A DNA stretch of 38,481 nucleotides, from positions 1 through 38,481 of the forward strand of contig JAUIFV010000026.1 of NCBI GenBank assembly GCA_030430155.1, in the 5' to 3' direction. This document shows, piece after piece, positions 5,442-29,100 of this stretch. The stretch's first letter is position 1; each line of letters begins with the position of its first letter. Below the pieces are notes generated by a model. It was not told the origin of the DNA. It was given only the letters and a program-made list of their open reading frames with translations, and made no database searches. A program made the position numbers and the translations under genes. The DNA comes from Gammaproteobacteria bacterium (GTDB lineage Bacteria; Pseudomonadota; Gammaproteobacteria; Xanthomonadales; SZUA-5).

Positions 5442-6749
5442 GTGAACGCCAGCGCCGCACTCGACCGCTATTTCCAGCTCAGCGCGCACGGCACCACCCC
5501 GCGCAAGGAACTGCTGGCCGGTCTGACCACCTTTCTCACTATGGCCTACATCCTGGTGGTCAACCCGGACATTCTGGCCGCCGCGGGAATGCCCAAGGAC
5601 GCGGTCTTCGTGGCCACCTGCCTGGCCGCCGCGCTGGGCTCGGCGATCATGGGGCTGTATGCCAACTACCCGATCGCGCTGGCGCCGGGGATGGGCTTGA
5701 ATGCCTACTTCGCCTTCGTGGTGGTCGGCACCATGGGCTTCAGCTGGCAGACCGCTTTAGGCGCGGTGTTCCTGTCCGGCTGTTTGTTCCTGATCGTCAG
5801 TCTGCTGCGGGTGCGCGAGTGGGTGGTCAACGCCATCCCGCGTTCGCTGAAACTGGCGATCTCCGCCGGTATCGGCCTGTTTCTGGCCATCATCGGCTTG
5901 AGCAACGCCGGCATCATCAAGCCCGACCCAGCCACTTTGGTCAGCCTGGGTGATCTGCATCAGCACGGCGCGCTCTACGCCATCGTCGGACTGCTGCTGA
6001 TCGTCGCACTGCAGGCCCGCAAGGTCACCGGCGGGGTGATTATTGGGATTCTGGCTGTGACGGCAGTCGCCATCGTGTTAGGTCACGCGCCCTTTCAGGG
6101 CGTCATCGCCGCGCCGCCGTCGCTGGCGCCTACGCTGCTGGCGATGGATCTGGCCGGGGCTCTCAACGCCGGGCTGCTGGCGGTGATTCTGACCTTCTTT
6201 CTGGTCGAACTCTTTGACGCCACCGGAACGCTGGTCGGGGTCTGCCATCGGGCCGGTCTGCTCGACGCCGACGGCAAGCTGCCGCGACTCAATCGCGCCC
6301 TGCTGGCCGACTCCAGCGCGATTGCCGCCGGTGCTGCGCTGGGCACCTCATCCACTACCGCCTACATCGAAAGCGCGGCTGGTACCGCGGTCGGCGGGCG
6401 CACCGGGATGACCGCGGTGACAGTCGCGCTACTGTTCCTGCTGGCCCTGTTTTTCGCCCCGCTGGCCGGCAGCGTGCCCGGCTTCGCTACCGCCCCGGCG
6501 CTGATTTATGTCGCGGTGCTGATGACCCGCGGCCTGGCCGAGCTGGATTGGGAGGACATCACCGAAAGCGCACCGGCGGTGCTCTGCGCCGTGGCCATGC
6601 CGCTGACCTTCTCCATCGCCCACGGCATCGCCTTCGGCTTTGTCAGCTATGCCGGCATCAAGCTCCTCGCCGGGCGCTGGCGTGAGGTGGGCGTGGCGGT
6701 GTGGGTGATCGCCGCGGTCTTTCTGGCCAAGTTCATCTGGCTGGTTTGA
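5442..6749 (+). CDS. NCS2/AzgA-type purine (hypoxanthine/guanine/adenine) permease
   Basis: This 435-residue inner-membrane protein has about 12-14 hydrophobic segments and takes up purine bases by proton symport, as AdeQ, PurP and GhxP do. Family signatures are visible: the amphipathic N-terminus TPRKELLAGLTTFLTMAYI, NPDILAAAGMPKDAVFVATC, the substrate-site stretch ALAPGMGLNAYFAF, the FFLVELFDATGTLVGV motif, and GTSSTTAYIESAAG. These place it with AzgA-like purine permeases rather than uracil or xanthine carriers. The start is GTG at 5442. Its last 17 bases overlap tail-to-tail with the final gene of the minus-strand operon (6733-7329). No purine riboswitch was seen upstream. The exact base preference cannot be read from sequence. 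Confidence 0.93.
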   Translation: MNASAALDRYFQLSAHGTTPRKELLAGLTTFLTMAYILVVNPDILAAAGMPKDAVFVATCLAAALGSAIMGLYANYPIALAPGMGLNAYFAFVVVGTMGFSWQTALGAVFLSGCLFLIVSLLRVREWVVNAIPRSLKLAISAGIGLFLAIIGLSNAGIIKPDPATLVSLGDLHQHGALYAIVGLLLIVALQARKVTGGVIIGILAVTAVAIVLGHAPFQGVIAAPPSLAPTLLAMDLAGALNAGLLAVILTFFLVELFDATGTLVGVCHRAGLLDADGKLPRLNRALLADSSAIAAGAALGTSSTTAYIESAAGTAVGGRTGMTAVTVALLFLLALFFAPLAGSVPGFATAPALIYVAVLMTRGLAELDWEDITESAPAVLCAVAMPLTFSIAHGIAFGFVSYAGIKLLAGRWREVGVAVWVIAAVFLAKFIWLV

Positions 6750-7329
6750 ACAGCCAGCGCAGCGCCAGATGGGTAAGTCCGTAGGCGCTGCACAACAGGG
6801 TGGCGATGGCCAGCGCGCGAAGCGCCGGGGATGCGCCCGGCAGCGCGCGATCAAAGCCGGAGTGCACAAAGTTGAGGTTGTGCGGCGCCAATTCGGGCCA
6901 GCTGCCCAATCCCAGCACCGCCAAGGTGAGCAGACTCTGTAACGCGAGCGCGCGGCGATCGTAGCCATGGCGTTGCAGGCAGTACAGCAGCAGCGCCGGC
7001 CAGAGCAGATGGTAAAGGGAAAGCGCTCGCGCCAGCCACGGTATGGATGGGTCCCACATGTAGGCGGTGCCGCCGTGCAGGAAGCTGCCGCCGAGCAAGC
7101 GCCAAAGCACGTCCGCCAACCATGTGAGCGCCAGACCCAGCATCAGCAGCGGTGCGGCGCTGATCCACAGCTGCCGACCAAGCAATATGCCCAGCGCGCT
7201 GAGTACGACGGCCAAGTTGCACAGATAGAGGAAATGCCAGCCGCCGTAGGTCAGCGCATACACCGGCAAGTACAGCAGCAGCCAGAGCAGCGCGAACCAG
7301 CGCAGGCGCGGATAGGGGTGAGGGCTCAA
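6733..7329 (-). CDS. Polytopic membrane protein of unknown function, last gene of lipid-type operon
   Basis: The product has 198 residues with six or so hydrophobic segments and short polar loops. I do not recognise the family with confidence. Distinctive loop residues are GGTAYMWDPSIPW and SLYHLLWP in the middle, QRHGYDRRALALQS after them, and ELAPHNLNFVHSGF near the C-terminus; such polar residues in or near membrane could form an active site. The start was set at TTG 7329 because it overlaps the TGA stop of the upstream desaturase gene (TTGA), matching the overlapping junctions of this operon; a longer upstream frame only shadows that gene. Its 3' end overlaps the convergent permease by 17 bp. 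It presumably works with the upstream lipid-type enzymes (inference). Confidence 0.8.
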   Translation of the reverse strand: MSPHPYPRLRWFALLWLLLYLPVYALTYGGWHFLYLCNLAVVLSALGILLGRQLWISAAPLLMLGLALTWLADVLWRLLGGSFLHGGTAYMWDPSIPWLARALSLYHLLWPALLLYCLQRHGYDRRALALQSLLTLAVLGLGSWPELAPHNLNFVHSGFDRALPGASPALRALAIATLLCSAYGLTHLALRWLFKPAR

Positions 7330-8117
7330 TGCGCGACCTGCGCTTGTGCGCTCGCGTTGCGTTCCTGCACATCGCGGCCCAGCAGCATCGGCACGATGAC
7401 GCTCTTCAGCGGCTGGGCAAAGCCCACCACGCCTTCGAAGCGTTCGGGGTTCTCGAAACTGCCCGCGCACAGATCCCAGATCGGCAGATCGCTGTAGTTG
7501 GACCGATGATGGTCACGCCGATGGTGCACACAGTGCGCCTCCGGTCGCTGGATCAGATAGCCCAGCCAGCGCGGTGTGGCGATATTGAAGTGCTGGAACA
7601 TGCCGTAGAAGGCACCGATATAGGCCAACAGCATGGCCGCGACCGGATCCAAGCCGAGCAGAAAGACGCTGACCGCGACGAACAGCACGGCGTTGGCCGC
7701 GGCCTCCAGCGGGGTTTGGAACATTACCCCCGCCACATCGATGCGCTGCGGCGCGTGGTGCAACTGATGCACATGCCGCCATAGCCAATCAACGCGGTGA
7801 TAGGCACGGTGCAATAGGGCATTGCCCAGGGACAGAAACAGATAGCCGATGAGCGCCGCCGGCAGCACGCCCCAGGCGCTGCTGTCGATCAGATGAACGC
7901 GCCCGAAGGCCCCCAGCAGGGCTGCTGAAACCATCCCGTTGGTAATGCCGAGCAGGCAGAATCCGGCGGCGCCGATCCACTGCCAGTAACGAATCCGCGG
8001 CCAGCGCTGACCGCTGCCGCACCACTCCACCAGCACCATCAGCGCATAGGTCAGCGGGATCATCAGCGCGATTGCGGCGCGCCACAGATCGTCGCTGCTG
8101 AAGGCGCTCAAGTTCAC
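7326..8117 (-). CDS. Sterol desaturase/fatty acid hydroxylase superfamily membrane protein
   Basis: The 263-residue integral membrane protein carries the three histidine boxes that hold a di-iron centre: H103-x3-H107, H117-x2-H120-H121 and H195-x2-H198-H199, with further His at 176, 203 and 204. Four to five hydrophobic segments surround them, as in the fatty acid hydroxylase superfamily, whose members (sterol desaturases, alkylglycerol monooxygenase, carotenoid hydroxylases) use O2 to hydroxylate or desaturate lipids. The substrate here is unknown. GTG 8117 overlaps the radical SAM stop (GTGA), which decides the start. The downstream gene overlaps its stop with a TTG. Its place between a Tes-like radical SAM gene and a membrane protein gene points to lipid modification rather than a sterol pathway; no sterol gene is nearby. 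Confidence 0.9.
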   Translation of the reverse strand: MNLSAFSSDDLWRAAIALMIPLTYALMVLVEWCGSGQRWPRIRYWQWIGAAGFCLLGITNGMVSAALLGAFGRVHLIDSSAWGVLPAALIGYLFLSLGNALLHRAYHRVDWLWRHVHQLHHAPQRIDVAGVMFQTPLEAAANAVLFVAVSVFLLGLDPVAAMLLAYIGAFYGMFQHFNIATPRWLGYLIQRPEAHCVHHRRDHHRSNYSDLPIWDLCAGSFENPERFEGVVGFAQPLKSVIVPMLLGRDVQERNASAQAQVAH

Positions 8118-9661
8118 TGGTTGACGGCGACGGGGCGATGATCGGGCAGTTTGGGGAAGCGCTGCCAGCTGTCGTCGGCGCGCAGGCGGGCGTTGTACTC
8201 GCAGAAGGACACCGGCCGCCCGTGGGTATCGAGTATGTGGTGGCAACAGGCCGAAACCCGATCCTGGTCAAAGCTGTAGCGGTCCATGAACGGCTTGATG
8301 GCGATTCCGAATACGTCGCGCGGCCGAATCAGGCGCCGGCCCAGCCGCGCCAGCAGGCCGCGCCAGCCCTGATCGCGGGCAGTGCCGACCACGTCCTGCA
8401 TTTCTGTCTCGCTGAGCAGGGTCTTGTAGGCCACCTGGTCCATCACCTTGGCCAGATCGACATGGCGGGCGATATTGGCGAACAGGCCGAAGCGACGGGC
8501 GAACAGGGTGACCCAGCCGCAGTTGGGGTGGCTGCAGGGGATCGGCAGAAAATCGCCCTCGCCGGCCCTGTTGCCCAGCCCCTGGGCGATGCCCTTGACC
8601 ACGTCGCTCAGGGTCAACCGGTCGGTGGGGTCGATGTCCAGCTCGTAGCGACCGGAGTAGAAGGCCGGCTGCATCGCCAGCAGGCGCACGTTGGCAAAGC
8701 GCCGCGCTTGGGCTACCACCCAGGCGATCTGGTCCTCACTGACGCCGCGGGACAGGGTCATGGTCAGCTGCATGGCAATGCCCAAACGATCCAGGTGCTG
8801 GATCAGGCGCAGGCGGTTGCGCTCCGGCTTGGCCCGGCGCAGCACCGGATTGGCGCCGGCGTCGGTGCCGTCAAACTGCAGCAGCACCAGCAGCTTGTCG
8901 GCGTAGGGAACCAGCCGCTCTGCGAAACCGGCTTTGCCCAGCTCGATACCGTTGCTGGGCAGATAGATCTTGCCTACCGGTTGCTGACACAGCCAAGCCA
9001 GCAGTTCGAAGAACTGCGGGTGCAGCGAGGCTTCGCCGCCGGTGATCTGCACCGAATCCAGTCCGCCTTTCTGCTTCAAGAGCGCGTCCAGATGGCGCTG
9101 GAAGTCCTTCAGCGGCAGGAATCGGTCGCCCTTGGAGTCCGAATAGCAGACCCGGCAAGCCAAGTTGCAGGCATCGGTCACTTCGACCAGCACGGTGCAG
9201 CTCTTGTTGGCGAGCTGATCGGCGAAGTCGAAATCGGCCGACGGCGCAGACGAGGTTTCGCCGCAACTGTTGCTGCCGCCGCAGCAGCCGCCTTGGGGTG
9301 CGAATTCGGGAATCTCGAAAACCCGATCATTGGCGTAGCGTCGACCCCATTGATCCTTGTTCGACAGGTGGTAATAGCGCCTGTCGTTCTCGAGCAGACC
9401 CAGGGCCAGTCCGTGCTTATCGCAGCGCTGGCGCAGCATGACCGCATCGCCGCGTTCGAACACCGCCGCCGGCACATGCTGCAGGCACTGCGGACACAGG
9501 CTGAGCGTCGTCTTCAGCAGACGATCTGCCTTGGTCAGGCCGAAAGCCTGGCGGACGTCCACCGAGTCCATCGCCCGAAGCGGTTCGGCGATGGCATTGA
9601 GTCGACTGCCGTAGTCGATTGCCGCCGATTCGGCGACCACCGGGATCTGAATCGCCTTCAT
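8114..9661 (-). CDS. Radical SAM enzyme, Cys-rich, resembling the tetraether synthase (Tes/MJ0619) group
   Basis: The 515-residue protein has the radical SAM motif C165-x3-C169-x2-C172 in VEVTDACNLACRVCY, and GGE at 208-210 for SAM binding. An N-terminal module has C56-x2-C59 and C80 with nearby His83, suggesting a metal knuckle, then a C126-C127/C133 cluster. C-terminal cysteines C376, C381, C472, C473 and C487 (SACCHHI, SFCEYN) could hold auxiliary iron-sulfur clusters. This order of N-terminal Cys module, SAM barrel and C-terminal Cys module is like archaeal tetraether synthase and bacterial membrane-spanning-lipid homologues, which join lipid tails through radical C-C bonds. ATG 9661 overlaps the upstream stop (ATGA). 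Radical SAM is certain; the Tes relationship is recognition from memory and needs an HMM test. Other MJ0619-like functions are possible. Confidence 0.93.
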   Translation of the reverse strand: MKAIQIPVVAESAAIDYGSRLNAIAEPLRAMDSVDVRQAFGLTKADRLLKTTLSLCPQCLQHVPAAVFERGDAVMLRQRCDKHGLALGLLENDRRYYHLSNKDQWGRRYANDRVFEIPEFAPQGGCCGGSNSCGETSSAPSADFDFADQLANKSCTVLVEVTDACNLACRVCYSDSKGDRFLPLKDFQRHLDALLKQKGGLDSVQITGGEASLHPQFFELLAWLCQQPVGKIYLPSNGIELGKAGFAERLVPYADKLLVLLQFDGTDAGANPVLRRAKPERNRLRLIQHLDRLGIAMQLTMTLSRGVSEDQIAWVVAQARRFANVRLLAMQPAFYSGRYELDIDPTDRLTLSDVVKGIAQGLGNRAGEGDFLPIPCSHPNCGWVTLFARRFGLFANIARHVDLAKVMDQVAYKTLLSETEMQDVVGTARDQGWRGLLARLGRRLIRPRDVFGIAIKPFMDRYSFDQDRVSACCHHILDTHGRPVSFCEYNARLRADDSWQRFPKLPDHRPVAVNQ

Positions 9662-10383
9662 GGGCTCACCTTCAACAAGCCGGCCAGAGCCCAGGCGCTG
9701 GCGCGGTACAGCCCGCGCCGGCTCGCCGACCAGCCCTGTCCATGTTCGAGCAGCACGCGACGCAGCTGGCTGGCGGAGAAATCCAGATTGCCGCGCCACT
9801 CGGCGCGTCGGTGCTGGGCCCAGACCTGATTGGCGACCCGCTGCGGCAGCAGCGCATTGACCGCCTCGCCGGTGTAGCGCACGTGCTCGTATTCGTCGGC
9901 CAGCACCGCGCCCACCGCTTTGGCCGGATAGTCGCAGGGCGAATGGGCGCAGGCTTCCAGGTGGTACTCCAGCGAGCGGGCCACGCGCTTTTCCAAACAG
10001 TGTGCGTGGGCCATGAAGTGGGCCACCTTGAGGCTGCGGGTATCGGCATCATCGGCCGGGTCGATGGCGAAGCTGGCCTCGGTATGATTGCGGATGACCG
10101 CATTGAAGATGCACGACAGCGGCAATTCGACCACGCTTTGCTCCAGGCGGCTGATCGCCTTGCTGTACAGCGCGATGTGCTTGTCCTCCTCCTGCGCGTG
10201 GCGGCTCATCCGCGCCGCAAGTTCGGCTTCGCTGACGTAGCCGACCGGGAAGTAGTCGTCCACCCGATGCGGGTAGGCCTCACCATTCAGATACAGGTTC
10301 AGGATCGCCCCGTGCAGCACCGGATCAGCGACGATGTCGCGATGCAGGCGCTGCTTGATGCCGTCGACGATGGAGATGCTCAT
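9658..10383 (-). CDS. Ferritin-like di-iron protein of unknown function
   Basis: This 241-residue, mostly helical soluble protein carries two E-x2-H motifs, E66-x2-H69 (EEDKH) and E164-x2-H167 (EYEH), with extra candidate ligands Glu35 and Glu131. This is the four-helix-bundle carboxylate-bridged di-iron pattern of ferritin-like oxygenases, rubrerythrins and MiaE-type hydroxylases. It lacks the rubredoxin-like Cys tail of rubrerythrin and is too long for a simple bacterioferritin. It could be an oxygenase acting on the same lipid, or could protect the oxygen-sensitive radical SAM enzyme from peroxide or O2. The start ATG follows GAGGG by five bases. The stop overlaps the radical SAM start (ATGA), implying coupled translation and roughly equal amounts. 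Confidence 0.82.
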   Translation of the reverse strand: MSISIVDGIKQRLHRDIVADPVLHGAILNLYLNGEAYPHRVDDYFPVGYVSEAELAARMSRHAQEEDKHIALYSKAISRLEQSVVELPLSCIFNAVIRNHTEASFAIDPADDADTRSLKVAHFMAHAHCLEKRVARSLEYHLEACAHSPCDYPAKAVGAVLADEYEHVRYTGEAVNALLPQRVANQVWAQHRRAEWRGNLDFSASQLRRVLLEHGQGWSASRRGLYRASAWALAGLLKVSP

Positions 10384-10404: not shown

Positions 10405-10557
10405 TCAACCGAGCATGCAGATGCCGAACAGCAGGGCACCCAACACCAGTAATGCCGCTGGTATACCAAGCAGAACGATCAGCAGCGCTTTTAGCCCTGG
10501 GTGCATGCCTTGGCGTGGCGGATCTTGATCCGGTTGCCATGGGTCGTTCGGGTTCAT
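10405..10557 (-). CDS. 50-residue single-span membrane peptide
   Basis: A short gene: a polar, Pro/Asp-rich N-terminal half (MNPNDPWQPDQDPPRQG) is followed by one strongly hydrophobic helix at residues about 22-48 ending in GICMLG. ATG 10557 overlaps the stop of the Lgt-like gene (ATGA), as at the other junctions of this operon, which is the main evidence that it is real; the following di-iron gene begins 21 bp later with its own ribosome-binding site. It may be a small subunit or membrane tether for the soluble enzymes. I know of no family for it. Confidence 0.65.
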   Translation of the reverse strand: MNPNDPWQPDQDPPRQGMHPGLKALLIVLLGIPAALLVLGALLFGICMLG

Positions 10558-11291
10558 TGGCGTACTCCGGTTGCCGTATCGACGCTGCTGCCAGCCGGCG
10601 AGCGCAGCCACAGGCTGAGCAGTCCCAGCAGCACCATCAGCAGCGCCATCCATTGATAGGCCGAGTGCCCGGCGAAGGCCTTGGCGGTATCGCGCAGATA
10701 TTCACTGGCGAAGCGAAAAACGCCATAGCCGAGCAGGTAGAGTGCAAACAACCGGTGGCGCAGCAGGCCGCGCTTGTAGAGCTGCCAAAGCAGCCCGGCA
10801 AACAGCAGCTGAAAGAGCATTTCATACACCGGCGCCGGATGGCGCAGCACCCCCTGGGCATCGCGCATTGCCAGCCAACCGCTGTACGGCAAACCCTGAC
10901 AGCAGCCGGCCAGCAGGCAGCCGATGCGGCCGATGCCGATAGACACGGGCAGGATCACCGCGAAGCGATCGTTCGGTGGCAGCCGATATCCCAGCAGCGG
11001 CTTGGCCAACTCGGCGGTGATGAATCCAAACAGCAGCGCGCCGGCGATCGAGCGCCCCGAGACCAGCAGCTGCGGCCACTCCGGGTAGGGCTGCAGCGGC
11101 CACAGCGCATCACCCATCAGCACCGCGAACTTCGCTCCCACCAGCGCACCGAGCAGGGTGATGCCCTGTATTACGTAGTAGCTGCGCCGCTCGGCCGATC
11201 CGCGCAGATCGCGGGTCAGCGGAAAGGCCAGCATCACCAGCGCGCCCAGCAGCACCATTAGCGCGTAGCCGGCATGGATATCGATGCTCAT
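10554..11291 (-). CDS. Lgt-like integral membrane protein (divergent prolipoprotein diacylglyceryl transferase fold)
   Basis: The 245-residue protein has about seven hydrophobic segments and an Lgt-like layout: a central GIGRIGCLLAGCCQG in place of the Lgt signature, PVYEMLFQLL, and a C-terminal YGVFRFASEYLRD matching the Lgt Tyr/Arg/Glu/Arg motif. Lgt moves diacylglycerol from phosphatidylglycerol to lipoprotein cysteines. Here the essential HGG loop is replaced by SGRSIAG, and the signature Asn residues by Cys125 and Cys130/131, so normal Lgt activity is unlikely. It more likely binds or transfers a phospholipid-derived group for the operon's pathway (inference). ATG 11291 overlaps the upstream stop (ATGA). 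It is not the housekeeping lgt. Confidence 0.85.
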   Translation of the reverse strand: MSIDIHAGYALMVLLGALVMLAFPLTRDLRGSAERRSYYVIQGITLLGALVGAKFAVLMGDALWPLQPYPEWPQLLVSGRSIAGALLFGFITAELAKPLLGYRLPPNDRFAVILPVSIGIGRIGCLLAGCCQGLPYSGWLAMRDAQGVLRHPAPVYEMLFQLLFAGLLWQLYKRGLLRHRLFALYLLGYGVFRFASEYLRDTAKAFAGHSAYQWMALLMVLLGLLSLWLRSPAGSSVDTATGVRQ

Positions 11292-11629
11292 GACCAGGGC
11301 TGGTCCAGCCACAGCCAGACGCCGATAAAGCCCGCCAGCGCCAGATTGGCGGCCGCATGCACCGCACGCTCACGGCGATCGATGTGCTGGTGAAAGCCGA
11401 AGGCGTCATACAGGTGCAGCGGCAGAAACAGTCCCAGCGCGATCCAGGCCTGCGTTGCGTAGCCGCCGAACACGCTGGTGAAGTAGGCGATCAGGCTCAG
11501 CGCCAGACCGTTGTGCAGCCACCACTCGGTCCGCGGCACCTTGCGGCCGCGCTCGTGCCACCAGGCGTCCAACCCGGCGCAAACCAGATAGGGACTGACC
11601 GCCAATGCCAGCAGGAGGGTGCGCGTCAC
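11288..11629 (-). CDS. Small polytopic membrane protein, first gene of lipid-type operon
   Basis: The 113-residue product has about three to four hydrophobic helices, with conserved-looking polar spots LDAWWHERGRKVPRTEW after the first helix and LYDAFGFHQHIDRRERAVH before the last. I do not recognise the family. GTG 11629 was chosen because AAGGA lies seven bases upstream; a GTG 19 codons earlier has no ribosome-binding site and would put a polar tail before the first membrane helix. It is the first gene of a seven-gene minus-strand unit ending at 6733. The operon promoter should lie in 11630-11773, a region shared with the divergent Asp-box protein gene; no clear boxes were found. Confidence 0.75.
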   Translation of the reverse strand: MTRTLLLALAVSPYLVCAGLDAWWHERGRKVPRTEWWLHNGLALSLIAYFTSVFGGYATQAWIALGLFLPLHLYDAFGFHQHIDRRERAVHAAANLALAGFIGVWLWLDQPWS

Positions 11630-11773
11630 GCCAGAGTCCTTCACATCCGTTGCCGCAGTGTCGCGCGGATCAGTAGTCGAATGCACGCGGCTAGCCCGCT
11701 GCGGGCAACGGCTGACCCGGTCTGTTGGTGACCGAGCTACACTCCAGCCCTGCCTTTGCTCGGGGAGGAGTTC

Positions 11774-14700
11774 ATGGGACGCACATTGCTTTGGGTCGCG
11801 CTGCTATTGCTGCAGCTGCCACTGTACGCCAAGGATGAACCTGCTTCGCCGACCCACGGGCTTAGCTTCCGCAACATCGGCCCGCAGATCGACGGTCGGA
11901 TCACCGCAGTGACCGGCGTACCGGGCGATCCGCTGACCTACTATCTGGCGGCGGCTCAGGGCGGGGTGTGGAAGAGCAGCAACGGCGGTCACAAATGGAC
12001 TCCGATCTTCGACGAGCAGCCATCCAATGCGGTGGGCTCGATCGCGGTGGCGCCGTCCGATCCCAACGTGGTCTACGTCGGCGGCGGCGAGGCCAACATC
12101 CGCGGCAACGTGCAGGCGGGCGAGGGCATCTTCCGCTCCACCGACGGTGGCGCCAGCTGGACTCATCAGCTCAAGCTGCGCGGCCAGATCGGTCAGCTTG
12201 CAGTGCATCCGGAAGACGCCGATATCGCATTCGCCGCGGTCCTGGGCAATCCTTTCAAGGCCGCCGAAGCGCGCGGCGTCTACCGCACCGTTGATGGCGG
12301 TACGACCTGGACCAAGGTGCTCTACGTCGATGAACACACCGGCGCCTCCGACGTGGTCATCGACCAGACCAATCCACGCATCGTATTTGCCGGCACCTGG
12401 CAGACCCGGCGTCAGCCCTGGGGCCATACCAGCGGCGGCCCGGGCGGCGGACTATGGCGCTCGGCCGACGGTGGCGTCAGCTGGAAGCGTATCGTAGGCA
12501 AGGCCAGCGGATTGCCGGATGGGGAGTGGGGCAAGGTCGGGGTGGCGATTGCGCCCACCGACGGCAAGCGGGTCTACGCCCTGATCGAGGCCGAAGCAGG
12601 CGGCCTGTTCCGCTCCGACAACGGCGGCAAGACCTTCAAGCGCATCAACGATCATCAGGTGCTGCGGCAGCGGGCCTGGTACTACACCACCATGACCCCG
12701 CATCCGAGCAATCCGGACGTGCTGTGGGTACCGCAGGTGCGGATGTTGCGCAGCATCGATGGCGGTCGGTCGGTGCAGTCGATTCCGGGCTTCTCCCACG
12801 GCGATCATCATGACATATGGATCGATCCTGTCGACCCGAAGCGGATGATCGCCGGTCACGATGGCGGCGTTGATCTGTCGGTGGATGGCGGCGCCAGCTG
12901 GTTCCATCCGCGCCTGCCGCTGGCGCAGTTCTACAACATCGACGTCGATGGGCGCACGCCCTACCACGTTGGCGGCACCATACAGGACTACGGCACCGCC
13001 AGCGGGCCGTCGATGTCGCTGCTGGGCAAGACCGCGCCGCTGGCCGAGTGGCGGGTGGCAGGTGGCGGCGAAGCGGGTGACTTCAAGTTCGATCGCGAAC
13101 TGCCGGGCGTGGCCTACGCCGGCGAATACAGCGGCTACTTGTCGCGCGCCGATGAGGCCAGCGGGCAAACTCGCGCGATCAGTGCCTGGCCGGCCAACGC
13201 CATCGGCTGGGCTGCCGCCGATCTGAAGTATCGCTTCCAGTGGACCGCGCCCATCGAGACCTCCGCGCACGACCCGGCGGTGCTCTACCACGCAGCCCAG
13301 GTGCTGTTCCGCTCCACCGATCGCGGCGAGAGCTGGACCGCGATCAGCGGCGATCTGACCCGCAACGATCGCAGCAAACAGCAGTGGTCGGGCGGGCCGA
13401 TCACCGGCGACAACACCGGCGTGGAGGTCTACAACACCATCTTCTCGGTGGCCGAATCGCCTCTGGATGCCAACACCGTGTGGGTGGGCACCGATGACGG
13501 TCTAGTCCATCTGACCCGCGACGGTGGGCAGAGCTGGACCGAAGTCACGCCCGACGCTTTGCCGGAGTGGGCCACGGTGGAGGGCATCGAGGCTTCCAAG
13601 GTTCAGGCCGGGCGGGTCTACGTGGTCGCGCACCGCTATCGGCTGGGCGACGATAGCCCGCTGTTGTATCGCAGCGACGACTTTGGCGGGCGCTGGACCG
13701 CGATCAGCAAGGGTCTGCCCGCCGACATGCCGCTGTACGCACTGCGTGAGGACCCGACCGATCCCGACACGCTGTATCTGGGCGCCGAGCGCGATCTGTA
13801 CATCTCCACCGATCGCGGCGCCAGCTGGCGCTCGATGCGGCTGAATCTGCCGCCGGTGGCAGTCACTGATCTGGCCGTTTCGCACAGCGGCGATCTGGTC
13901 GTCGGCACTCGCGGTCGCTCGATCTGGGTGCTCGATGACGTGGCCAGCGTCCGTGCCGCGCTGGCCGCTGCCGACAGCGCATTGCTGCGCGCGCCGGCAC
14001 AGGCGGTACGCTGGCAAAGCGCGCGCATCTGGGGCGGCGATGGGCTCGACAACGCGCCGCGCGGGGTGGTCCTGCGCTATCGACTGCCGGAGCCAGTCGA
14101 GGGCAACTTCAGCATGGAGATACGCGACGCCGAGGGCGCCCTGGTGCGTACGCTGAGCAGCGTGGCCGAGCCGGCCCGCTACGCGCCCGACGACCCCGAT
14201 GCGCCGACCCCCGAGCCGAAGCCGGATCTGCCCAATCAGGCCGGCTGGAACAGCGCCGTTTGGGACTTCCGCCATGACGGCGCGCGCAAGATCCCGGACG
14301 CCAAGACCGCCTTCGGCAACCCCTACGCCGGGCCGATGGTGGCGCCGGGAAGCTATCAGGCCCGTCTGCTGCTCCCCGGCGGCGCGCTGAGCGCCGAATT
14401 CAGCGTGATCGCCGATCCGCGCAGCGACACCAGCGCCGCGGATTTGAATGCTCAAACGGCCTTTGGACTGCAGCTGCGCGATGCGCTGGACCTGCTTGCC
14501 GTGGAGGTGATCAAGCTGCGCAGCTGGCGCGATCAGGCTGCTGAACACGCTCGCCGGCTGGCCGATCAGCCCGGGGCCGCGGCCGTGGTCAGCGCCGCCG
14601 AGCGGGTGGTAGAGCAGGCCGAGTCCATTGAGGGTCGATTGCACAACCGCACGGCCGTGGTGGCCTATGACTTTCTGGCTCAGAAGGGCGGCACCCGCCT

Positions 14701-14929
14701 GCACGGGCAGTTGGGTAGCCTGCTGGGGATGGCTCAGGACTCCGACCATCGGCCTACCGCGGCCATGCTCGCGCGCTACACGGAGCTGGCCGAGCAGCTA
14801 ACCCGGCTGCGCGGTGAGGTCGCCGGACTGGCGCAAGGGCCGCTGGCAGTGCTGGAAGCCGAGCTGGAGCGCAGCGGCGTGGGCCGGGTGGTGACGCCAG
14901 AGCCGGCGCGGGCGGACAACTCGCAATAG
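11774..14929 (+). CDS. Secreted Asp-box (BNR/VPS10-like) beta-propeller protein
   Basis: The 1051-residue protein starts with a signal peptide (residues 1-19, ending LPLYA). Residues about 30-730 contain some ten Asp-box motifs of the S-x-D-x-G-x-x-W type, such as STDGGASW, TVDGGTTW, SADGGVSW, SVDGGASW, STDRGESW and STDRGASW. These mark the beta-propellers of sialidases, sortilin/VPS10 domains and photosystem-stability-factor-like proteins. A linker and a FlgD/fibronectin-like strand domain (about 770-890) precede a helical C-terminal region. Bacterial proteins of this layout are often labelled 'glycosyl hydrolase' but no catalytic triad is evident, so a binding role is as likely. The ATG was chosen for the strong GGGGAGGAG just upstream. 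The next gene follows after 14 bp. Confidence 0.9.
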   Translation: MGRTLLWVALLLLQLPLYAKDEPASPTHGLSFRNIGPQIDGRITAVTGVPGDPLTYYLAAAQGGVWKSSNGGHKWTPIFDEQPSNAVGSIAVAPSDPNVVYVGGGEANIRGNVQAGEGIFRSTDGGASWTHQLKLRGQIGQLAVHPEDADIAFAAVLGNPFKAAEARGVYRTVDGGTTWTKVLYVDEHTGASDVVIDQTNPRIVFAGTWQTRRQPWGHTSGGPGGGLWRSADGGVSWKRIVGKASGLPDGEWGKVGVAIAPTDGKRVYALIEAEAGGLFRSDNGGKTFKRINDHQVLRQRAWYYTTMTPHPSNPDVLWVPQVRMLRSIDGGRSVQSIPGFSHGDHHDIWIDPVDPKRMIAGHDGGVDLSVDGGASWFHPRLPLAQFYNIDVDGRTPYHVGGTIQDYGTASGPSMSLLGKTAPLAEWRVAGGGEAGDFKFDRELPGVAYAGEYSGYLSRADEASGQTRAISAWPANAIGWAAADLKYRFQWTAPIETSAHDPAVLYHAAQVLFRSTDRGESWTAISGDLTRNDRSKQQWSGGPITGDNTGVEVYNTIFSVAESPLDANTVWVGTDDGLVHLTRDGGQSWTEVTPDALPEWATVEGIEASKVQAGRVYVVAHRYRLGDDSPLLYRSDDFGGRWTAISKGLPADMPLYALREDPTDPDTLYLGAERDLYISTDRGASWRSMRLNLPPVAVTDLAVSHSGDLVVGTRGRSIWVLDDVASVRAALAAADSALLRAPAQAVRWQSARIWGGDGLDNAPRGVVLRYRLPEPVEGNFSMEIRDAEGALVRTLSSVAEPARYAPDDPDAPTPEPKPDLPNQAGWNSAVWDFRHDGARKIPDAKTAFGNPYAGPMVAPGSYQARLLLPGGALSAEFSVIADPRSDTSAADLNAQTAFGLQLRDALDLLAVEVIKLRSWRDQAAEHARRLADQPGAAAVVSAAERVVEQAESIEGRLHNRTAVVAYDFLAQKGGTRLHGQLGSLLGMAQDSDHRPTAAMLARYTELAEQLTRLRGEVAGLAQGPLAVLEAELERSGVGRVVTPEPARADNSQ

Positions 14930-16456: not shown

Positions 16457-18289
16457 TCACGCGGTGCTGGCTTGCAGTTTCAGTAGCGCCTGCCGGATCT
16501 CGTCCTGAGTTCCACGTTTGATCGCCTTGCCCTGGTGCATCAGCTCAAAGCAGACCACCTGCTCAACCCCGTCGGGCAGGACACGCAGTATGCGGTTGAC
16601 CAGATACTTGCCCTTGCGACCCAAGACGCGGCGCACCAGCTTCGCGGTCTGCGCGGCGGCGGTCGTTGCGCTGGCTGGCTCCGGCTTGCTCGCTGCAGGC
16701 ATCGCTGGCGGTGGCGCTGCAGCCGGCGAACGCACCGGGACCTGCTCAAACAGCGCGGCCGGCTCCGGATCAGGCTCACTGGCGTTGTAGAGCGGGGTGC
16801 TGGCGCCACTGCGCGGTCGTACTGACGGCGGTCGATGGCGGGCCAATCCCGGTTCCCACTCCAGTGGCGGTAGGTCGGCCTTGGGTTCGTCATTCTCGGT
16901 CGTTTGCTCCGCCGCGACGGTCTCGCTGGGTGCTGCTAGCGATGCCGATGGGCGCGGTGCGCTGCCGGCAGAGGGCGGCGGCGGTGGCAAAGCGTTGCCG
17001 GGGACCGACGCAGCGTTCGCTGAGGTGCCGGACGGCGGCGGCGGTGGCGGCATGGCGGCGCGGTCGGCGGCGCGCTGTTTGGCTTGCGCGCTGATCTGCG
17101 CGGTGCGCGCGCGCTGGCGCTGCGCCTTCAACTTGCTCAGACTCCAGGCGACCATGCCGGCCACAACCAGCAGCAGCGCCAGGGCAATCAGCGGCCGCGC
17201 CCACAGCCAGCCCAGCACCAGCGTGAACAGGCCCAGCACCAGACCGAGCAGCGCCCCGACCAGACGCAGCGAGGTGTCCAGCAGCGGGCCCAGCACCGGC
17301 ACTATCGACAGCAGTCCGCTGATCGCCCCGACCATGCCGGCCATGCCCAACATGGCGCCGAGCACGCCGACCAGGCGCAGCAAACTGCGTGCGCCACCGT
17401 TGCGGCTGATCGCCTGGCTGACCATTTGCCCGGCATCCTCGACGCCGCTGCGTGCAATCAATACCGACTTGCCGTTGCTGGCCTGCCACGGCACCAGGCT
17501 GTCGCCGTTCTGCGCGGCGATAAGCGAAAGCTTGTAGTGATTGGGGAACTCATAGAAAGTGACCGAGATGTCGCCGATCTCGATCTCGTCGACGCTCTGA
17601 TCGCCGAGGTAGTACTCGTCCGGCTCAATCTGAAACCAGCCCTGACTGCTCAGCCTTGCGGACAATTCGGGCAGGCTGGCGCGGTATTGCGGCCAGTGCC
17701 CCAGGCTGCCCGGATCCTCATCGCCCATCGCCCACAACGCACGTCGCGCCAGCGTTTCGCTGTTGAAGCGGTAGGGGCCAAGCCGCGCGTCCTCGGCGAA
17801 GAAGCCCGCGCTGCGAATCGTCGGCTTCGGATTGTGGTGACCCTCGGGCTGCTCGAAGCGGCTGGAATCGTGGTAGCGCCAGTCCCAATCCATCTCGTAG
17901 TAGACCTCGCTGCGCTTACGCACGCCTTTGCCACGGCTGCGCTTACGCTCGATCCACTGGTACATCTGCACGTGGCGATACAGCGCCACGCCCTGGGTGC
18001 GTAGCCCAAACGTGTCATCGCGCGCGCCCAGTTGAGTGCTGACCGTGGTGCTCAGATGGACCGGTTTGCCGTCCAGGGCCGGATCGACGGCGGCACCCGT
18101 CTCAACCACCTGCGTGCCGGCTTCGGCGTAGGCATCAGCCTGCGCTTTGGACGAGGTTTCATTCCAGAACAGCAGCGCCAGCGAGAGCAGGAAGATGGCG
18201 CCGCTACTCAAGGTCGAGGTCGTCCCGCCGCCCCAGCTGAACCAGGAATCCTCGTCGTCACCAGCGTCCAGTTCAATCTCGTCCAGCAT
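16457..18289 (-). CDS. TMEM43/LUMA family membrane protein with long Pro-rich C-terminus
   Basis: The 610-residue protein has a first membrane helix at about 28-43 and a group of three at about 300-385. The large loop between them has the TMEM43 family features AAVDPALDGKPVHLS, FGLRTQGVALYRHVQMYQW and the aromatic-rich WDWRYHDSSRF. Eukaryotic TMEM43 is an inner nuclear membrane protein; the bacterial relatives are of unknown role. After the last helix an unusual 200-residue tail is rich in Pro, Ala and Ser (about 405-540) and ends in a small folded, basic segment (KLVRRVLGRKGKYLVNRI). No obvious ribosome-binding site precedes ATG 18289. It is divergent from the AHSA1-like gene. Confidence 0.85.
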   Translation of the reverse strand: MLDEIELDAGDDEDSWFSWGGGTTSTLSSGAIFLLSLALLFWNETSSKAQADAYAEAGTQVVETGAAVDPALDGKPVHLSTTVSTQLGARDDTFGLRTQGVALYRHVQMYQWIERKRSRGKGVRKRSEVYYEMDWDWRYHDSSRFEQPEGHHNPKPTIRSAGFFAEDARLGPYRFNSETLARRALWAMGDEDPGSLGHWPQYRASLPELSARLSSQGWFQIEPDEYYLGDQSVDEIEIGDISVTFYEFPNHYKLSLIAAQNGDSLVPWQASNGKSVLIARSGVEDAGQMVSQAISRNGGARSLLRLVGVLGAMLGMAGMVGAISGLLSIVPVLGPLLDTSLRLVGALLGLVLGLFTLVLGWLWARPLIALALLLVVAGMVAWSLSKLKAQRQRARTAQISAQAKQRAADRAAMPPPPPPSGTSANAASVPGNALPPPPPSAGSAPRPSASLAAPSETVAAEQTTENDEPKADLPPLEWEPGLARHRPPSVRPRSGASTPLYNASEPDPEPAALFEQVPVRSPAAAPPPAMPAASKPEPASATTAAAQTAKLVRRVLGRKGKYLVNRILRVLPDGVEQVVCFELMHQGKAIKRGTQDEIRQALLKLQASTA

Positions 18290-18878: not shown

Positions 18879-21236
18879 CTAGCCCTGACGACGCAGCAGC
18901 AGGGCGCCGCCAATGGCGGTGAGCAGGACCAGCAGCAGCAGGCTGGTGCGGCTCAAGGTGTTGATCGGGGCAATCAGCGGCTGCACGTTCAGCGTCGCCG
19001 AAGCGGTCGCCGCGCCGCCAGCACTGCCGACGTCGCTTTGCAGCGGACCGGCGGTGTTGACCAGATTGCCTTCCAGCGAGACCACCACGTCGAAGCTGAT
19101 GGTGCAGGTGCTGTTGGCCGCCACATCGCCGCCGCTGAAGTCCACGCTGACCGCACCAGAGGACGCATTCAGCGTGCCCGCACCACAGCTGTGGCTGGCC
19201 CCGTTCGGGGTCGCCACGCGCATGCCGTCAGGCAGGTTGTCAGTCAGCGCCAAGCCGGTCACCGGCAGGGTGCTGCCGCTGTTGTCGACGGTCAGCACCA
19301 CCTGGGAAACATCGCCAACCAGGACGAAGGCCGGATTGAAGGCCTTGGCCAGCGTCGGCAGCGGATTGACTCGCAGGTTGGCGCTGGCGTTGCCGCTGTT
19401 GCCGGCGTTGCTGGCCAGACTGGCGCTGTTGACCACATCGCCGCTGGCCACCGCAGTGACGTCAAAGCTGATCGTGCAGCTCGCGCCGGCAGCCAAGCTG
19501 CCGCCGCTGTAGTTCACAGCGGTCGACCCGTCTGGCGCGCTCAAGGTGCCACCGGCACAGGTGGTGCTGGCGTTGGCCGGTGTTGCGACCACCAGTTCGG
19601 GCGGCAGGTTGTCGATCACGCTGATCCCGCTGAGCGCCTGGGTGGCGGTGCTGTTGTCGACGCTGACCGTGACGGTGCTGTTCTGGCCGACGAACAGGCT
19701 GCCCGGGGCAAAAGCCTTGCTGATGGCGGGCAAGGCTTCGACGGTTAGCGAGGAGGACCCGCTGCCGCTGGCACCGGCGCTGATGCTCAGGCTGGCGGTG
19801 TTGAGCAAGCTGCCGGTCGCGTTGGCGCTAACGTCGAAACTCACCGTGCAGGTGGCGCCGCCGGCAAGGCCGCCGCCGCTGTAGGTGACTGAGGTACCGC
19901 CGCTGACTGCGCCGATGCTGCCGCCGCTACAGGTGGTGCTGGCGTTGGCTGGATTGGCAACGATCATCCCGGCAGGCAGGTTGTCGACCACATTGATCGC
20001 GGTCAGTGCCTGAGTGGCGGCGCTGTTGTCGATAGTCAGGACCACGGTGCTGTTCTGGCCCAGGAAGATCACGCCCGGGTTGAAGATCTTCGAAATCGAC
20101 GGCCGTTCCTCGGCGGTCAGGGTGGCGCTGGCGGTGCCGCTGTTGCCCAGGTCGGAGGTCAAGTCGCCGGTGGTGTTGACGAAGCTGCCGGTGCTATTGG
20201 GTACCACGTCGACCAGCACTTCACAGGTCGCCCCGGCGCTCACGCTGCCGCCGGTGTAGCTGACTACGCCCGATCCCGGGGTGGCGGTCAGGGTACCGCC
20301 GGTGCAGGTGGTGCTGGCGTTGCTCGGCGAGGCGACCACCAGCAGCGCCGGCAGGTTGTCGGTGAAGTCCAGCGCGGTGGCGTCGAGCACGTTGGCGCTG
20401 TTGTCGATGCTCAGGCTGAGCTGCGACGCCTGCCCGGAGAACACCAGGTCCGGGGTGAACTGCTTGCTGAAGCCTGGCGGGTTGCTGCCTTCGATCAGCA
20501 GCATGTGGAACTGCGCGAAGGGGCTGCCGCCAAAGAAGAAGCTGCCCCCGTAGGCGCCGGTGGCGACATCCGGGGTGAATATATCGAAGACGTCGGTGCG
20601 GCCTGGCGCACCCGGCGCCGGGCCTTCGGCGCTGATCGACGGCCCGAGGCTGGTGGCGTTGCCGGTATCGACCGCCAGGAAGCCCCAGCCCCAATCGGTG
20701 CCCGGGTTCATGTCGGTATCCGGACCGGTGATAATGAACTGGTCGTCGGCGGCGAGCACGATGTTGATGGTGTACGCAAAAATTCCGCCCCCGGTCAGGC
20801 CGGTAATCGGTATGTCGTAGCTGGCCTGCCCGCCGCCCACGGTCGGCAGCAGATTGCCGACCGAGTTGAACTGATCGTTCTCGTAGAAGCTGTAGCGCAG
20901 CGTGATGGCGCCGGTGGCGTCGGTGGCAAAGCCGATCTGGAACTCGCCGATCACGGTGCCGTCGGGCAAATCGCCCTCGTCGAGCAGTTCCTGACCGACC
21001 GTGCCGCGGAAGAATCCGGTGGGTGCGGTGTTGTCCCAAATGGTGTCGCCCGGCGCATTCGGCTGCAGCGGCGTCAAGCGTCCGGCGTCGGACAGCGCAA
21101 AGGTGCCCAGGTGGATGACTTGATCCGCCGCGGCGACCTGGGCGGAATCATTGATCGGCGTGGATTGCGCCATCGCTGACTGGGTTGCCAGCGCCAGCGC
21201 GGCCAGGGCGGCGCAGCGCCGCAGTGGGTAATACAT
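18879..21236 (-). CDS. Secreted DUF11-type repeat protein with IPTL/PEP-CTERM-like sorting tail
   Basis: The protein has 785 residues. A signal peptide (about 1-24, ending SAMAQ) precedes an N-terminal beta-rich domain to about residue 250. Four tandem DUF11-like beta-sandwich repeats begin near residues 255, 380, 503 and 629, each about 123 long, with recurring phrases such as FLGQNSTV, VDNLPAGM, NASTTCSGG, SYTGG/TYSGG and GATCTVSFDV. The two cysteines per repeat probably pair. The tail APINTLSRTSLLLLVLL... ending ALLLRRQG is a hydrophobic helix plus basic end resembling an IPTL/PEP-CTERM exosortase-type sorting signal; no exosortase is in the window. ATG 21236 follows AGGGGA by five bases. 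The likely role is a surface or matrix protein. Confidence 0.88.
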   Translation of the reverse strand: MYYPLRRCAALAALALATQSAMAQSTPINDSAQVAAADQVIHLGTFALSDAGRLTPLQPNAPGDTIWDNTAPTGFFRGTVGQELLDEGDLPDGTVIGEFQIGFATDATGAITLRYSFYENDQFNSVGNLLPTVGGGQASYDIPITGLTGGGIFAYTINIVLAADDQFIITGPDTDMNPGTDWGWGFLAVDTGNATSLGPSISAEGPAPGAPGRTDVFDIFTPDVATGAYGGSFFFGGSPFAQFHMLLIEGSNPPGFSKQFTPDLVFSGQASQLSLSIDNSANVLDATALDFTDNLPALLVVASPSNASTTCTGGTLTATPGSGVVSYTGGSVSAGATCEVLVDVVPNSTGSFVNTTGDLTSDLGNSGTASATLTAEERPSISKIFNPGVIFLGQNSTVVLTIDNSAATQALTAINVVDNLPAGMIVANPANASTTCSGGSIGAVSGGTSVTYSGGGLAGGATCTVSFDVSANATGSLLNTASLSISAGASGSGSSSLTVEALPAISKAFAPGSLFVGQNSTVTVSVDNSTATQALSGISVIDNLPPELVVATPANASTTCAGGTLSAPDGSTAVNYSGGSLAAGASCTISFDVTAVASGDVVNSASLASNAGNSGNASANLRVNPLPTLAKAFNPAFVLVGDVSQVVLTVDNSGSTLPVTGLALTDNLPDGMRVATPNGASHSCGAGTLNASSGAVSVDFSGGDVAANSTCTISFDVVVSLEGNLVNTAGPLQSDVGSAGGAATASATLNVQPLIAPINTLSRTSLLLLVLLTAIGGALLLRRQG

Positions 21237-21438
21237 AACGATCCCCTGAATGAGTACTACTGTTGGGCCAAAGCTCAGCAACGGGACGCGCACAGCGTGC
21301 CGCATCTGGCCGCAATTCTGCACCATGTTGCAACCGCATGCAGCAATAGGCCGGGTAGCCGATGCAACTGCCGGCGCATCGTTACAAAGTATCAACCGGC
21401 GGCCGCAATAGGAGGCTGATGCGATGCGGGCTAGCTAG

Positions 21439-26102: not shown

Positions 26103-29100
26103 TCAGTCCTCTGGCTCGGTCGGCAAGAATATTCCGACGAACACACCGACGTTGCCGCTGGCCAGGCCGAAAGTGACGATCAGCACCGGGGCCGGCAAGG
26201 CCAGCGGGCCGTCATTGACATAAGCCGAGTCGAAGCCGTCAGGGAATATTAATTGTCGGCAGCCGGGCGTCGCATCAAGCAGGCAGCCGTTGCGCACATC
26301 GCCAGGGCTGCTGATCGCGCCCTTGACCAGGCCGACCGTATTGTTGCCGATGTCGGCGGCGGCCTTGAGGTTAGCCAGGAGCTTGTTGATATCCTTCAAA
26401 TTCTGCGCCGTGGATAGCGCCGAGCTCAGTATGCTCTGCGCCTGGGCGATGGCATCGGGGCCGATCATGATGGTGCTGTTGGCCTGCGCATAGGACTCAA
26501 AGCCAACCCCTTCGGCCACCGAATTGGGAATCTTGGCGACGTGGATGGACAGGCTGGCGGCGGTGACTATCCCGGACAGATTGCCGGCATTGGCGTAGTC
26601 AAGGAGCAGGTTCTCACCGATCAGCACCACCGCTGCGCGTATCAAATCGCCGATCAGCGGCTTGTAGACCTTCTTGATGATGTTGCCGCGTATACGGGTG
26701 GCGCTGAGCACCCCGGCCAGGGTGAAGCGCACCGATTTGGCCATCTGCAGCGGCGCCTGCGGACCGAGCAGCCCGGCGTCACTCAGGGCCTGATGCACGG
26801 CGTCGATATCGCTGGCCAGCATTTGCGGAATGCGATGGTTGAGCAACTCCACGCTGGGTCCCAATGCGCCCAGCACGCCCGGCACGCTGGGCTCCAGGCC
26901 GTCGATGCCGGCGGCCTGGGCGAGCAGGCGCTGGTTTAGATTGAAGACTTCGATGTCCGGGGTCAGCGGATTGGCTACCAGTGCGGCCATCTGCGCCAGG
27001 CTCTGACCCAGCGCGGCGCTGCCGGCCAGATAGGCGCTGTCGTCGACAGCGGGGCTCTGACCCATGCTGATCGCGGTATCGCGATCGGGCGGCACACCGC
27101 CGTCCGGCGCCAGCGGGGTCAGGCCGCGGATGCGATCCACGCTCAAGCTTTCACGCAAGGTCTGCAGCTGCGCATCGATGGCCTGTATCGCCGGCACATC
27201 GTTGATCAATACCGCCGCCTCAAGCTCGGCAAATAGCCGGTCGGCGCTCTCCAGCTGCGCACCCAGCTCGGCGAATATGTCGCCTTCGGGCGCATCGGCG
27301 ATGGCCTCCATCACCACCAACTCGGTGGCAAAGCTTTCCATGGTCGCCGGCAGATCCACCTGCAGCAGGAACTCGCCCTGGGTGGTGGCGCTGGTCATGA
27401 CGCTGCCGGCTCCCGCCGTTGGCAGCGGACCGCTGGTGGTGCCGGGCACCGCCTCGACGATGCTGATATTGGCGGCGGGCTGCGGGTCCAGCGGCATGCC
27501 GTCGTTGCTGAATACGGTGATCGCCAGCGCCGAGCTCTGGCCGCCGATCAGCACCGGGCTGTCGATGGCGATGTCGATGCGCGGGCCGCCGGAAACGGTC
27601 AGATCGACGTTGGATCCGGGCGCTGCGTCGCGTCCGGGGGCCGGGCTCTGCGTGATGACTGTGCCCAGCGGCAGATCATCGCGATTGACGTAGGTGGTGG
27701 CGCCGAGCATCAGATTGGCATCGACCAGCCGATTGCCGGCGTTGAGCAGATCCAGTCCGACCACCCGCGGCACCGTTACCGGCGCCGGTCCCAGCGAGAC
27801 CTCCAGTCGCACCGAGTCTCCCGCTGCGGCGGCGCTGCCGCCAATCGGCAGCTGCGCGCGTACCTGGCCGGCGGGCACCACCGGGTCGAACACCGGGGCG
27901 ATGGGATTGGCGGCCAGATCGGCCGCCTCAACAGTGGCGACCGCGGCGGCCTGGGTCTGGCCGACCACGTCGGGCACGGTGGTGGCCATTCGCACCAGCA
28001 CCTCGAACAGCTGGGTATCGCTGTAGCCCAGGGTGTCGGTGACCTGCAGGATGATCGGATGGCTGCCCAGGTCGCCCATGGTCGGCGTCCAGGTGATCAA
28101 GCCCAGCGCATCCACGCTCATCCCGGCCGGCGCCTGCACCAACAGGTAGCTCAGGCTTTCGCCGACGTCCGGATCCACCGCCAGCACCGGATAGCTGTAG
28201 GGGAAGTCGGGCGAGGCGAGGGTCCGCGGGTTGGACAGGATCTGCGGCGCGTTGTTCGGCGGCAGCACCTCGATCTCTACCGTGGCCACGTTGGAGAGCA
28301 ACTCGCCATCGGAGGCTCTGTAGGTGAACTGATCGATCTGCGGGGTGCGCTCTTCGGGCAGCAGCGCGTTGACCCGGTTGGTATTCAATCCCGGCAGCAG
28401 CCAGTGCGGCTGCTCGCGCGCCGGCACCGTGCCGTCGGCGTTGACGTTGGTGACGTGGTAGTTCCACTGATTCCACACCGGCTGCGCCGCCGGCCAGTCG
28501 TCGTTGGGGCCTTCGTAGACGCGGAGGATGTCGGAAGCGCCGGTGCCAAAGCGCGATTCGCCGTGGATCACCAGTTCTGAGGCGCCGTCGGCGTCAATGT
28601 CGGCCAGGATCGGCATGGCCCGGATACCGGAATCGTTGTCCAGGTCGAAGATGCCGATCAGGGTGCCGTCTACGCCGTTGAGCAGGTGCATGTTGATTTC
28701 ACCATCGATGATTCCAACCTCGACCTTGCCGTCGCCGTCGAAGTCCATCACCACCGGGCCGTAGTAGAAGGGATCAAAACTCGGATCCTCCATCGGTGGG
28801 TAGCGCCACTTCAGACTGCCATCGATACCGTTGTAGACCTCCATGAATCCGTCTGAGGACCCATTGCCGGCGACCGAGAGGACATCGGCGCGGCCGTCAT
28901 CGTCGACATCGGCAACCACCAGCGGCAGATCTTCCTCAAAGGTGGTCGGGACCTGCCACTTGATGCTGCCGTCGTGCTCATACACCGTCGTTTCGTCGGT
29001 ATCGGTGCCGCGAATCAGCTCCGGGAAGGGGTCATCATCCAGATTGGCGGCGATCGGCGTGGAGCGCGGTGCGGAGAGATCGCCGGGTACCGTCCACAGC

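Follow-up and report, generated by a model that had tools for sequence, protein, structure and literature searches.

The Lgt-like gene described here belongs to a conserved module in which an Lgt-like membrane protein without the HGG loop is accompanied by a radical SAM enzyme of the Tes/TrsS superfamily and by a small membrane protein that bears a cysteine, an assignment to which we give a probability of about 0.9. The gene lies in the window, the whole stretch of 38,481 nucleotides that was analyzed (contig JAUIFV010000026.1 of the gammaproteobacterial assembly GCA_030430155.1), where the module is extended by additional membrane proteins and by a ferritin-like diiron protein. These are encoded in a seven-gene run on the minus strand, from 11686 to 6733, with 4-nt overlaps at five of the six junctions; no sigma-70-like promoter was found. 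The Lgt fold is known, as is the Tes/TrsS superfamily, and their association and the small cysteine protein appear undescribed: in the open-access literature, we found no paper joining Lgt, radical SAM enzymes, and tetraethers, or Lgt-like proteins and radical SAM enzymes, and none that names an Lgt-like partner of bacterial Tes homologs or the small cysteine protein.

The Lgt-like protein (positions 10554 to 11291, minus strand, 245 residues) is read from an ATG start, and its gene overlaps the gene on either side by 4 nt. It scores 86.8 bits against Pfam LGT, above the cut-off of 24.9, and 41 bits against the TIGR00544 lgt model, below the cut-off of 118.9. An AlphaFold2 model based on 17 sequences (pLDDT 85.7) was compared with solved structures by Foldseek, and the sole significant match was E. 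coli Lgt (5azb; E = 3.8e-6, Z = 14.0 over 222 residues). Judged by this model, the protein has the Lgt fold that the original prediction had assigned to it from the letters of the DNA. The separate, full lgt that was to be sought in the same genome is present as well, a canonical gene adjoining thyA on contig C260, so the window protein is not the sole Lgt. A further Lgt-like gene, itself adjoining a radical SAM gene, lies on contig C18.

Alignment with E. coli Lgt, whose numbering we use except where noted, places the most conspicuous differences in two motifs. The equivalent of GMSFHG is GRSIAG (11040 to 11057, minus strand; window R87 aligned with M100 and A90 with H103), and the equivalent of the Lgt signature is GIGRIGCLLAGCCQG (10893 to 10937, minus strand; window R129 aligned with R143, C132 with N146, C137 with E151, and C138 with L152), the window protein's signature reading GRIGCLLAGCCQG. 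The motifs GIGRIGCLLAGCCQG, SGRSIAG, and YGVFRFASE are present as the original prediction quoted them, and the alignments agree with its reading of a lost HGG loop and a retained C-terminal YG-x-x-RF-x-x-E motif. Its account of the signature, in which Asn residues were exchanged for Cys, is correct for N146 only; N149 is replaced by Ala, and the other two Cys residues replace E151 and L152. M100 is replaced by Arg. At position 103, where other Lgts can have Tyr, Trp, or Phe in place of His (PMC13251419), the window protein has Ala, which is none of these. The five residues of the phosphatidylglycerol (PG) site (R143, Y235, R239, E243, and R246) are all present, in keeping with the predicted retention of a phospholipid-binding frame, and Y26 is kept too. 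The head is short, with 23 residues between G154 and E202 versus 47 in E. coli Lgt and between 45 and 49 in the majority of E. coli-type Lgts. Compared with E. coli Lgt (5azb; TIGR00544, PF01790), then, the protein shares the fold and these six residues and differs in the absent HGG loop, the short head, the three Cys residues, E101 and K104, and the ties to a radical SAM enzyme and a small cysteine protein.

In a tree of 67 Lgts, a single branch (SH-aLRT 100) separates the 38 that are linked to a radical SAM gene, the window protein among them, from the 29 that are not, and the 38 clade members are spread across seven phyla. H103 is lost in every linked protein, the position being occupied by Val, Leu, Ala, Ile, or Glu, and R143, R239, and Y235 are retained in all 38. 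Cys at N146 (window C132) is found in 38/38 linked versus 10/29 unlinked Lgts, K104 in 38/38 versus 4/29, E101 in 37/38 versus 0/29, and Lys or Arg at M100 in 33/38 versus 0/29. On this sequence comparison, the clade is set apart by the change at H103, Lys or Arg at M100, Glu101, Lys104, and the short head. Because C132 is invariant and H103 is lost throughout, the pattern in the signature and loop is not a matter of chance. C137 and C138 are missing from the B type (the second of two types distinguished below by their radical SAM enzymes), and most of the clade lacks two of the three Cys residues.

Mutagenesis of E. coli Lgt has found R143, R239, H103, Y26, and N146 to be essential (PMC4728403, PMC13251419). 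The sequence GCxxxGCCxG nonetheless also occurs in the best unlinked Lgts of a Planctomycetaceae genome (L097) and a Myxococcota genome (L095), both presumed to be housekeeping Lgts, and N146C is known in distant Lgts, including that of Leptospira, which still partly complements (PMC13251419). Exchange of Asn for Cys alone is therefore no mark of lost function, and we dropped the proposal, made in the original prediction, that the Cys signature denotes loss of the transferase chemistry.

Scans with the window radical SAM protein recovered the window cassette in Lysobacterales, in Lysobacter dokdonensis, and in a Planctomycetaceae bacterium, and found adjoining Lgt-like and radical SAM genes of the B type in Verrucomicrobiota, Planctomycetota, Acidobacteriota, and Bacillota. 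Further pairs are present in Myxococcota, and one is on a Bacteroidota replicon; viral contigs held no Lgt-like relatives, and plasmids gave no DNA match. Because the loci were found mostly through the radical SAM gene, the reverse test was run from an Lgt-like profile. PF23545, the family of the radical SAM partner, is present in 14 of 397 Pseudomonadota genomes, and the same 14 carry the Lgt-like protein, a result that upholds the predicted tie to the radical SAM gene. The profile yielded 15 matches above 123 bits, all within these 14 genomes; the next matches reached at most 114 bits, and all 16 that were inspected were canonical HGG Lgts without a radical SAM gene. At all 13 Pseudomonadota loci outside the window's genome, the two genes lie within 1.5 kb of each other.

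Split loci occur in two families. Sandaracinaceae have the ferritin-like and radical SAM genes together with the Lgt-like gene elsewhere, and Myxococcaceae have the Lgt-like and ferritin-like genes together with the radical SAM gene elsewhere; the trio is thus kept despite broken linkage, which argues against mere operon hitch-hiking. Among Myxococcota without an adjoining Lgt-like gene, four of five genomes carry one elsewhere, and the gene is absent from G545 (L042), a fragmented MAG. The B-type loci without an Lgt-like gene, L053 and L076, are both at contig ends, and no such partner was found near the radical SAM gene of a partial Bacillota MAG (L044) or of a Mycolicibacterium plasmid (L143). 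Another radical SAM subfamily within PF23545, found in five Lysobacterales genomes (L062 and L065 to L068), is without the Lgt-like gene; at two loci, L146 and L147, a class I methyltransferase gene lies downstream (L146:4177-5004, L147:4650-5567). No canonical lgt was found in one MAG, G542 of the Opitutaceae, which may be incomplete. We also observed that the Sandaracinaceae genome of locus L039 (G541) holds seven Lgt homologs of several kinds, and that in two Myxococcaceae loci a divergent gene adjoins the Lgt-like gene (L178:5425-6921, which encodes a DUF362 protein, and L180:1748-3244).

The radical SAM partner in the window is a 515-residue protein of the Tes/TrsS/HMPTM superfamily (8114 to 9661, minus strand; PF23545 and PF04055) with an HMPTM zinc ribbon, and its gene overlaps the ferritin-like gene by 4 nt. 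Its nearest solved relative is tetraether synthase (Tes, or GDGT-MAS; MJ0619, 7tol; E = 2.9e-33), and the B-type enzymes match Tes with E = 2.6e-69. With Tes, the partners share overall homology, an N-terminal rubredoxin-type ribbon (C-x2-C-x20-C-x2-H), and the CxxxCxxC cluster motif; ribbon and motif are present in all 47 sequences of both types. Scores against the Tes model NF045702 (147 bits for A, about 257-295 bits for B) fall below its cut-off of 450, and the highest NCBIfam scores, obtained with the TrsS radical SAM (seleno)protein family NF045646 (183 bits for A, about 300-333 bits for B), fall below its cut-off of 490. A further difference from TrsS is that the separate subfamily noted above, which has no Lgt-like gene, has a methyltransferase gene downstream at L146 and L147. 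Roles in Tes have been described for Tyr459, Met439, and the ligands of the ribbon and N-terminal cluster (PMC9433317). In the A type, to which the window enzyme belongs, C77 and H83 have been lost from the N-terminal cluster, Met439 is replaced by Lys, and Tyr459 by Ile, Leu, or Met. In the B type, the N-terminal cluster is intact, C455 is mostly Ser and C470 is Asp or Glu (we infer both positions to be cluster ligands of Tes), and mostly Ile or Phe, also His, stands in place of Tyr459, a residue reported to be invariant across 1,000 archaeal enzymes (PMC9433317). On the replacement of Tyr459 and the scores below cut-off, we rejected the identification of either type as a Tes, and tail-to-tail coupling of lipids is therefore no safe inference. 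The source genome has a third HMPTM-type radical SAM gene, of the B type and cut by a contig end (contig C225; L145:5746-7134, minus strand).

A 50-residue ORF (10405 to 10557, minus strand) separates the Lgt-like gene, which it overlaps by 4 nt, from the ferritin-like gene. Its predicted product is a membrane peptide with a polar, Pro-rich start, positively charged residues ahead of its one helix, and Cys47 followed by just three residues (...LLFGICMLG), the candidate acceptor. A membrane protein with a C-terminal Cys directly follows the Lgt-like gene at all 12 A-type loci, and a small Cys protein also follows it where the radical SAM gene lies elsewhere (L153, L178, L179, and L180). Overall, a small membrane ORF with Cys at the helix end adjoins 36 of the 43 units, whereas the control counts are 6 of 218 for flanking genes and 0 of 30 for loci of canonical lgt under the same criteria, which were picked after the pattern had been seen and applied to units that are not independent. 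Three of the 36 positive units (L186, L188, and L194) include artefacts of the Lgt frame, two of them with a genuine second match, and at least two of the six control matches are second copies adjoining a unit (L048, L185). The remaining seven units have no small Cys protein under the set criteria; looser windows give one at four of them.

The small proteins differ in length and helix number, occur in tandem at several loci, and in other units many start at the radical SAM stop codon. Alphaproteobacterial and gammaproteobacterial units have small proteins with two helices, and the Cys stands between them, at the end of the first. Gly is found at position -2 from the Cys in 23 of 39 motifs, and position -1 is commonly Ile, Leu, Val, or Thr, for which reason the motif is not a lipobox. 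Across 15 small Cys peptides, 31 Lys or Arg residues precede the helix versus 7 that follow it. By the charge rule, the Cys is thus most likely on the outer face, on the same side as the active site of Lgt, which faces outward (PMC4728403).

Of the other members of the run, the ferritin-like protein (9658 to 10383, minus strand, 241 residues) is a probable diiron oxidase or oxygenase: two ExxH motifs and two Glu residues in a four-helix fold give a six-ligand pattern with invariant E35, E66xxH69, E131, and D163-E164xxH167, and the best matches of its model (pLDDT 92.8) are aldehyde-deformylating oxygenase and MiaE (Z about 15). Upstream of the Lgt-like gene, with a 4-nt overlap, a small membrane protein without a Pfam family (11288 to 11686, minus strand) is rich in His, Asp, and Glu; its invariant residues (D40, H44, R48, E54, H58, D94, H99, E106, and H110) possibly form a membrane metal site. 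A fatty acid hydroxylase superfamily protein (7326 to 8117, minus strand; PF04116, 80 bits) recurs in cassettes L028, L034, and L181 and is confined to few gammaproteobacterial cassettes, and a 198-residue membrane protein without a Pfam family (6733 to 7329, minus strand) accompanies it, according to the Pfam scan and cassette comparison. Divergent to the cassette is a 1057-residue Sortilin-Vps10/BNR repeat protein (11756-14929); within the genus, L026 also has a homolog beside its cassette, and L029 has one near its B-type unit. Elsewhere, the window encodes a bacterial TMEM43 homolog (16457-18289; PF07787, 145 bits), a probable surface protein that combines four DUF7933 stretches with DUF11 repeats (18879-21395), and a 1598-residue protein (26103-30899) whose domains are Ig-like, cadherin-like, FG-GAP, and PASTA, the last of which looks unusual in this context.

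What might such a module do? That a dedicated transferase lipidates the Cys of the small protein, and that the radical SAM enzyme acts on the resulting lipid or on the peptide, has at best a little less than an even chance. More specifically, and more tentatively, the module may represent a private lipidation outside the lipoprotein pathway, in at least seven phyla. The Lgt-like protein would take diacylglyceryl from PG and put it onto the Cys of the small membrane protein, which would remain uncleaved and resembles a prolipoprotein signal peptide that ends just after its Cys; the cytosolic radical SAM enzyme, joined in the window by the diiron protein, would then change the acyl chain or the peptide. 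Since the small protein stands beside almost every unit, a protein Cys acceptor may have been kept but changed, and a private acceptor of this non-lipobox kind would account for the missing H103 and large head. The thiol acceptor is more likely to reside on the small protein than on the Lgt-like protein. Against lipidation are the loss of a residue, H103, that is essential in E. coli Lgt, the non-lipobox residues at position -1, the variability of the small proteins, and the seven units without a match. With the active site of Lgt facing outward and the radical SAM enzyme expected in the cytosol, a shared substrate must also be reached from both sides.

The main rival, which takes up the original prediction and which we consider somewhat unlikely, is that a noncatalytic or altered Lgt-like protein binds PG and presents phospholipid to the Tes-like enzyme, which would change or join acyl chains into an unusual membrane lipid, with the small Cys protein as a structural subunit. 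Tes itself binds two phospholipids (PMC9433317), the match of the B-type enzymes to Tes is strong, the PG-site residues are kept while the HGG loop and head are lost, and the clade-specific E101 and K104, which probably lie on the TM3 end that faces the cytoplasm in E. coli Lgt, could contact a partner in the cytosol. Presentation of phospholipid leaves the constant, outer, helix-end Cys of a third protein unexplained, however, and sits uneasily with the replacement of Tyr459 in both types and the absence of two Cys residues of the C-terminal cluster region (Cys455 and Cys470) from the B type. Transfer of diacylglyceryl to a small-molecule or lipid acceptor, or hydrolysis of PG, to give a new glycerolipid that the radical SAM enzyme modifies, strikes us as improbable; R143 and R239, the pair that activates the C3-O bond in Lgt, are invariant, and the neighbors include the fatty acid hydroxylase and a protein resembling aldehyde-deformylating oxygenase, but the constant small Cys protein is the more direct acceptor, and the hydroxylase is limited to few cassettes.

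Two further readings have little probability. The Cys cluster could bind metal or react with the small Cys protein by thiol redox chemistry, as an invariant C132 and a partner Cys on the same face would allow; Cys is common in the signature motif of ordinary Lgts, however, and because the B type lacks C137 and C138, a three-Cys site cannot be general. Least probable of all is that the protein is simply a second, ordinary Lgt acting on normal lipoproteins. Such a protein would share the fold and the Arg pair, and N146C occurs in other Lgts (PMC13251419), but the window protein scores far under the lgt cut-offs, falls in a separate clade with a fixed link to radical SAM genes, has a G154-E202 stretch of roughly half the usual length, and coexists with a canonical lgt.

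Lipidation of the small protein, which we prefer, has a parallel in RiPP-lipoprotein hybrids such as dyb (PMC12636315), in which a small Cys peptide, a modifying metalloenzyme, and a lipid on Cys (here proposed) are likewise combined. In the dyb-type hybrids, the enzyme is the housekeeping Lgt and the lipobox is a true N-terminal one (PMC12636315), whereas here a dedicated Lgt-like protein would act on a Cys that follows a transmembrane helix. Because many proteins of this separate clade exceed the Pfam LGT cut-off, they are prone to being annotated as prolipoprotein diacylglyceryl transferase, despite the few residues that mark the clade off. Bacterial homologs of Tes have been tallied, with the proposal that they make membrane-spanning lipids (PMC8941075), and the small set of genes in the module is relevant to the function of bacterial Tes-like enzymes.
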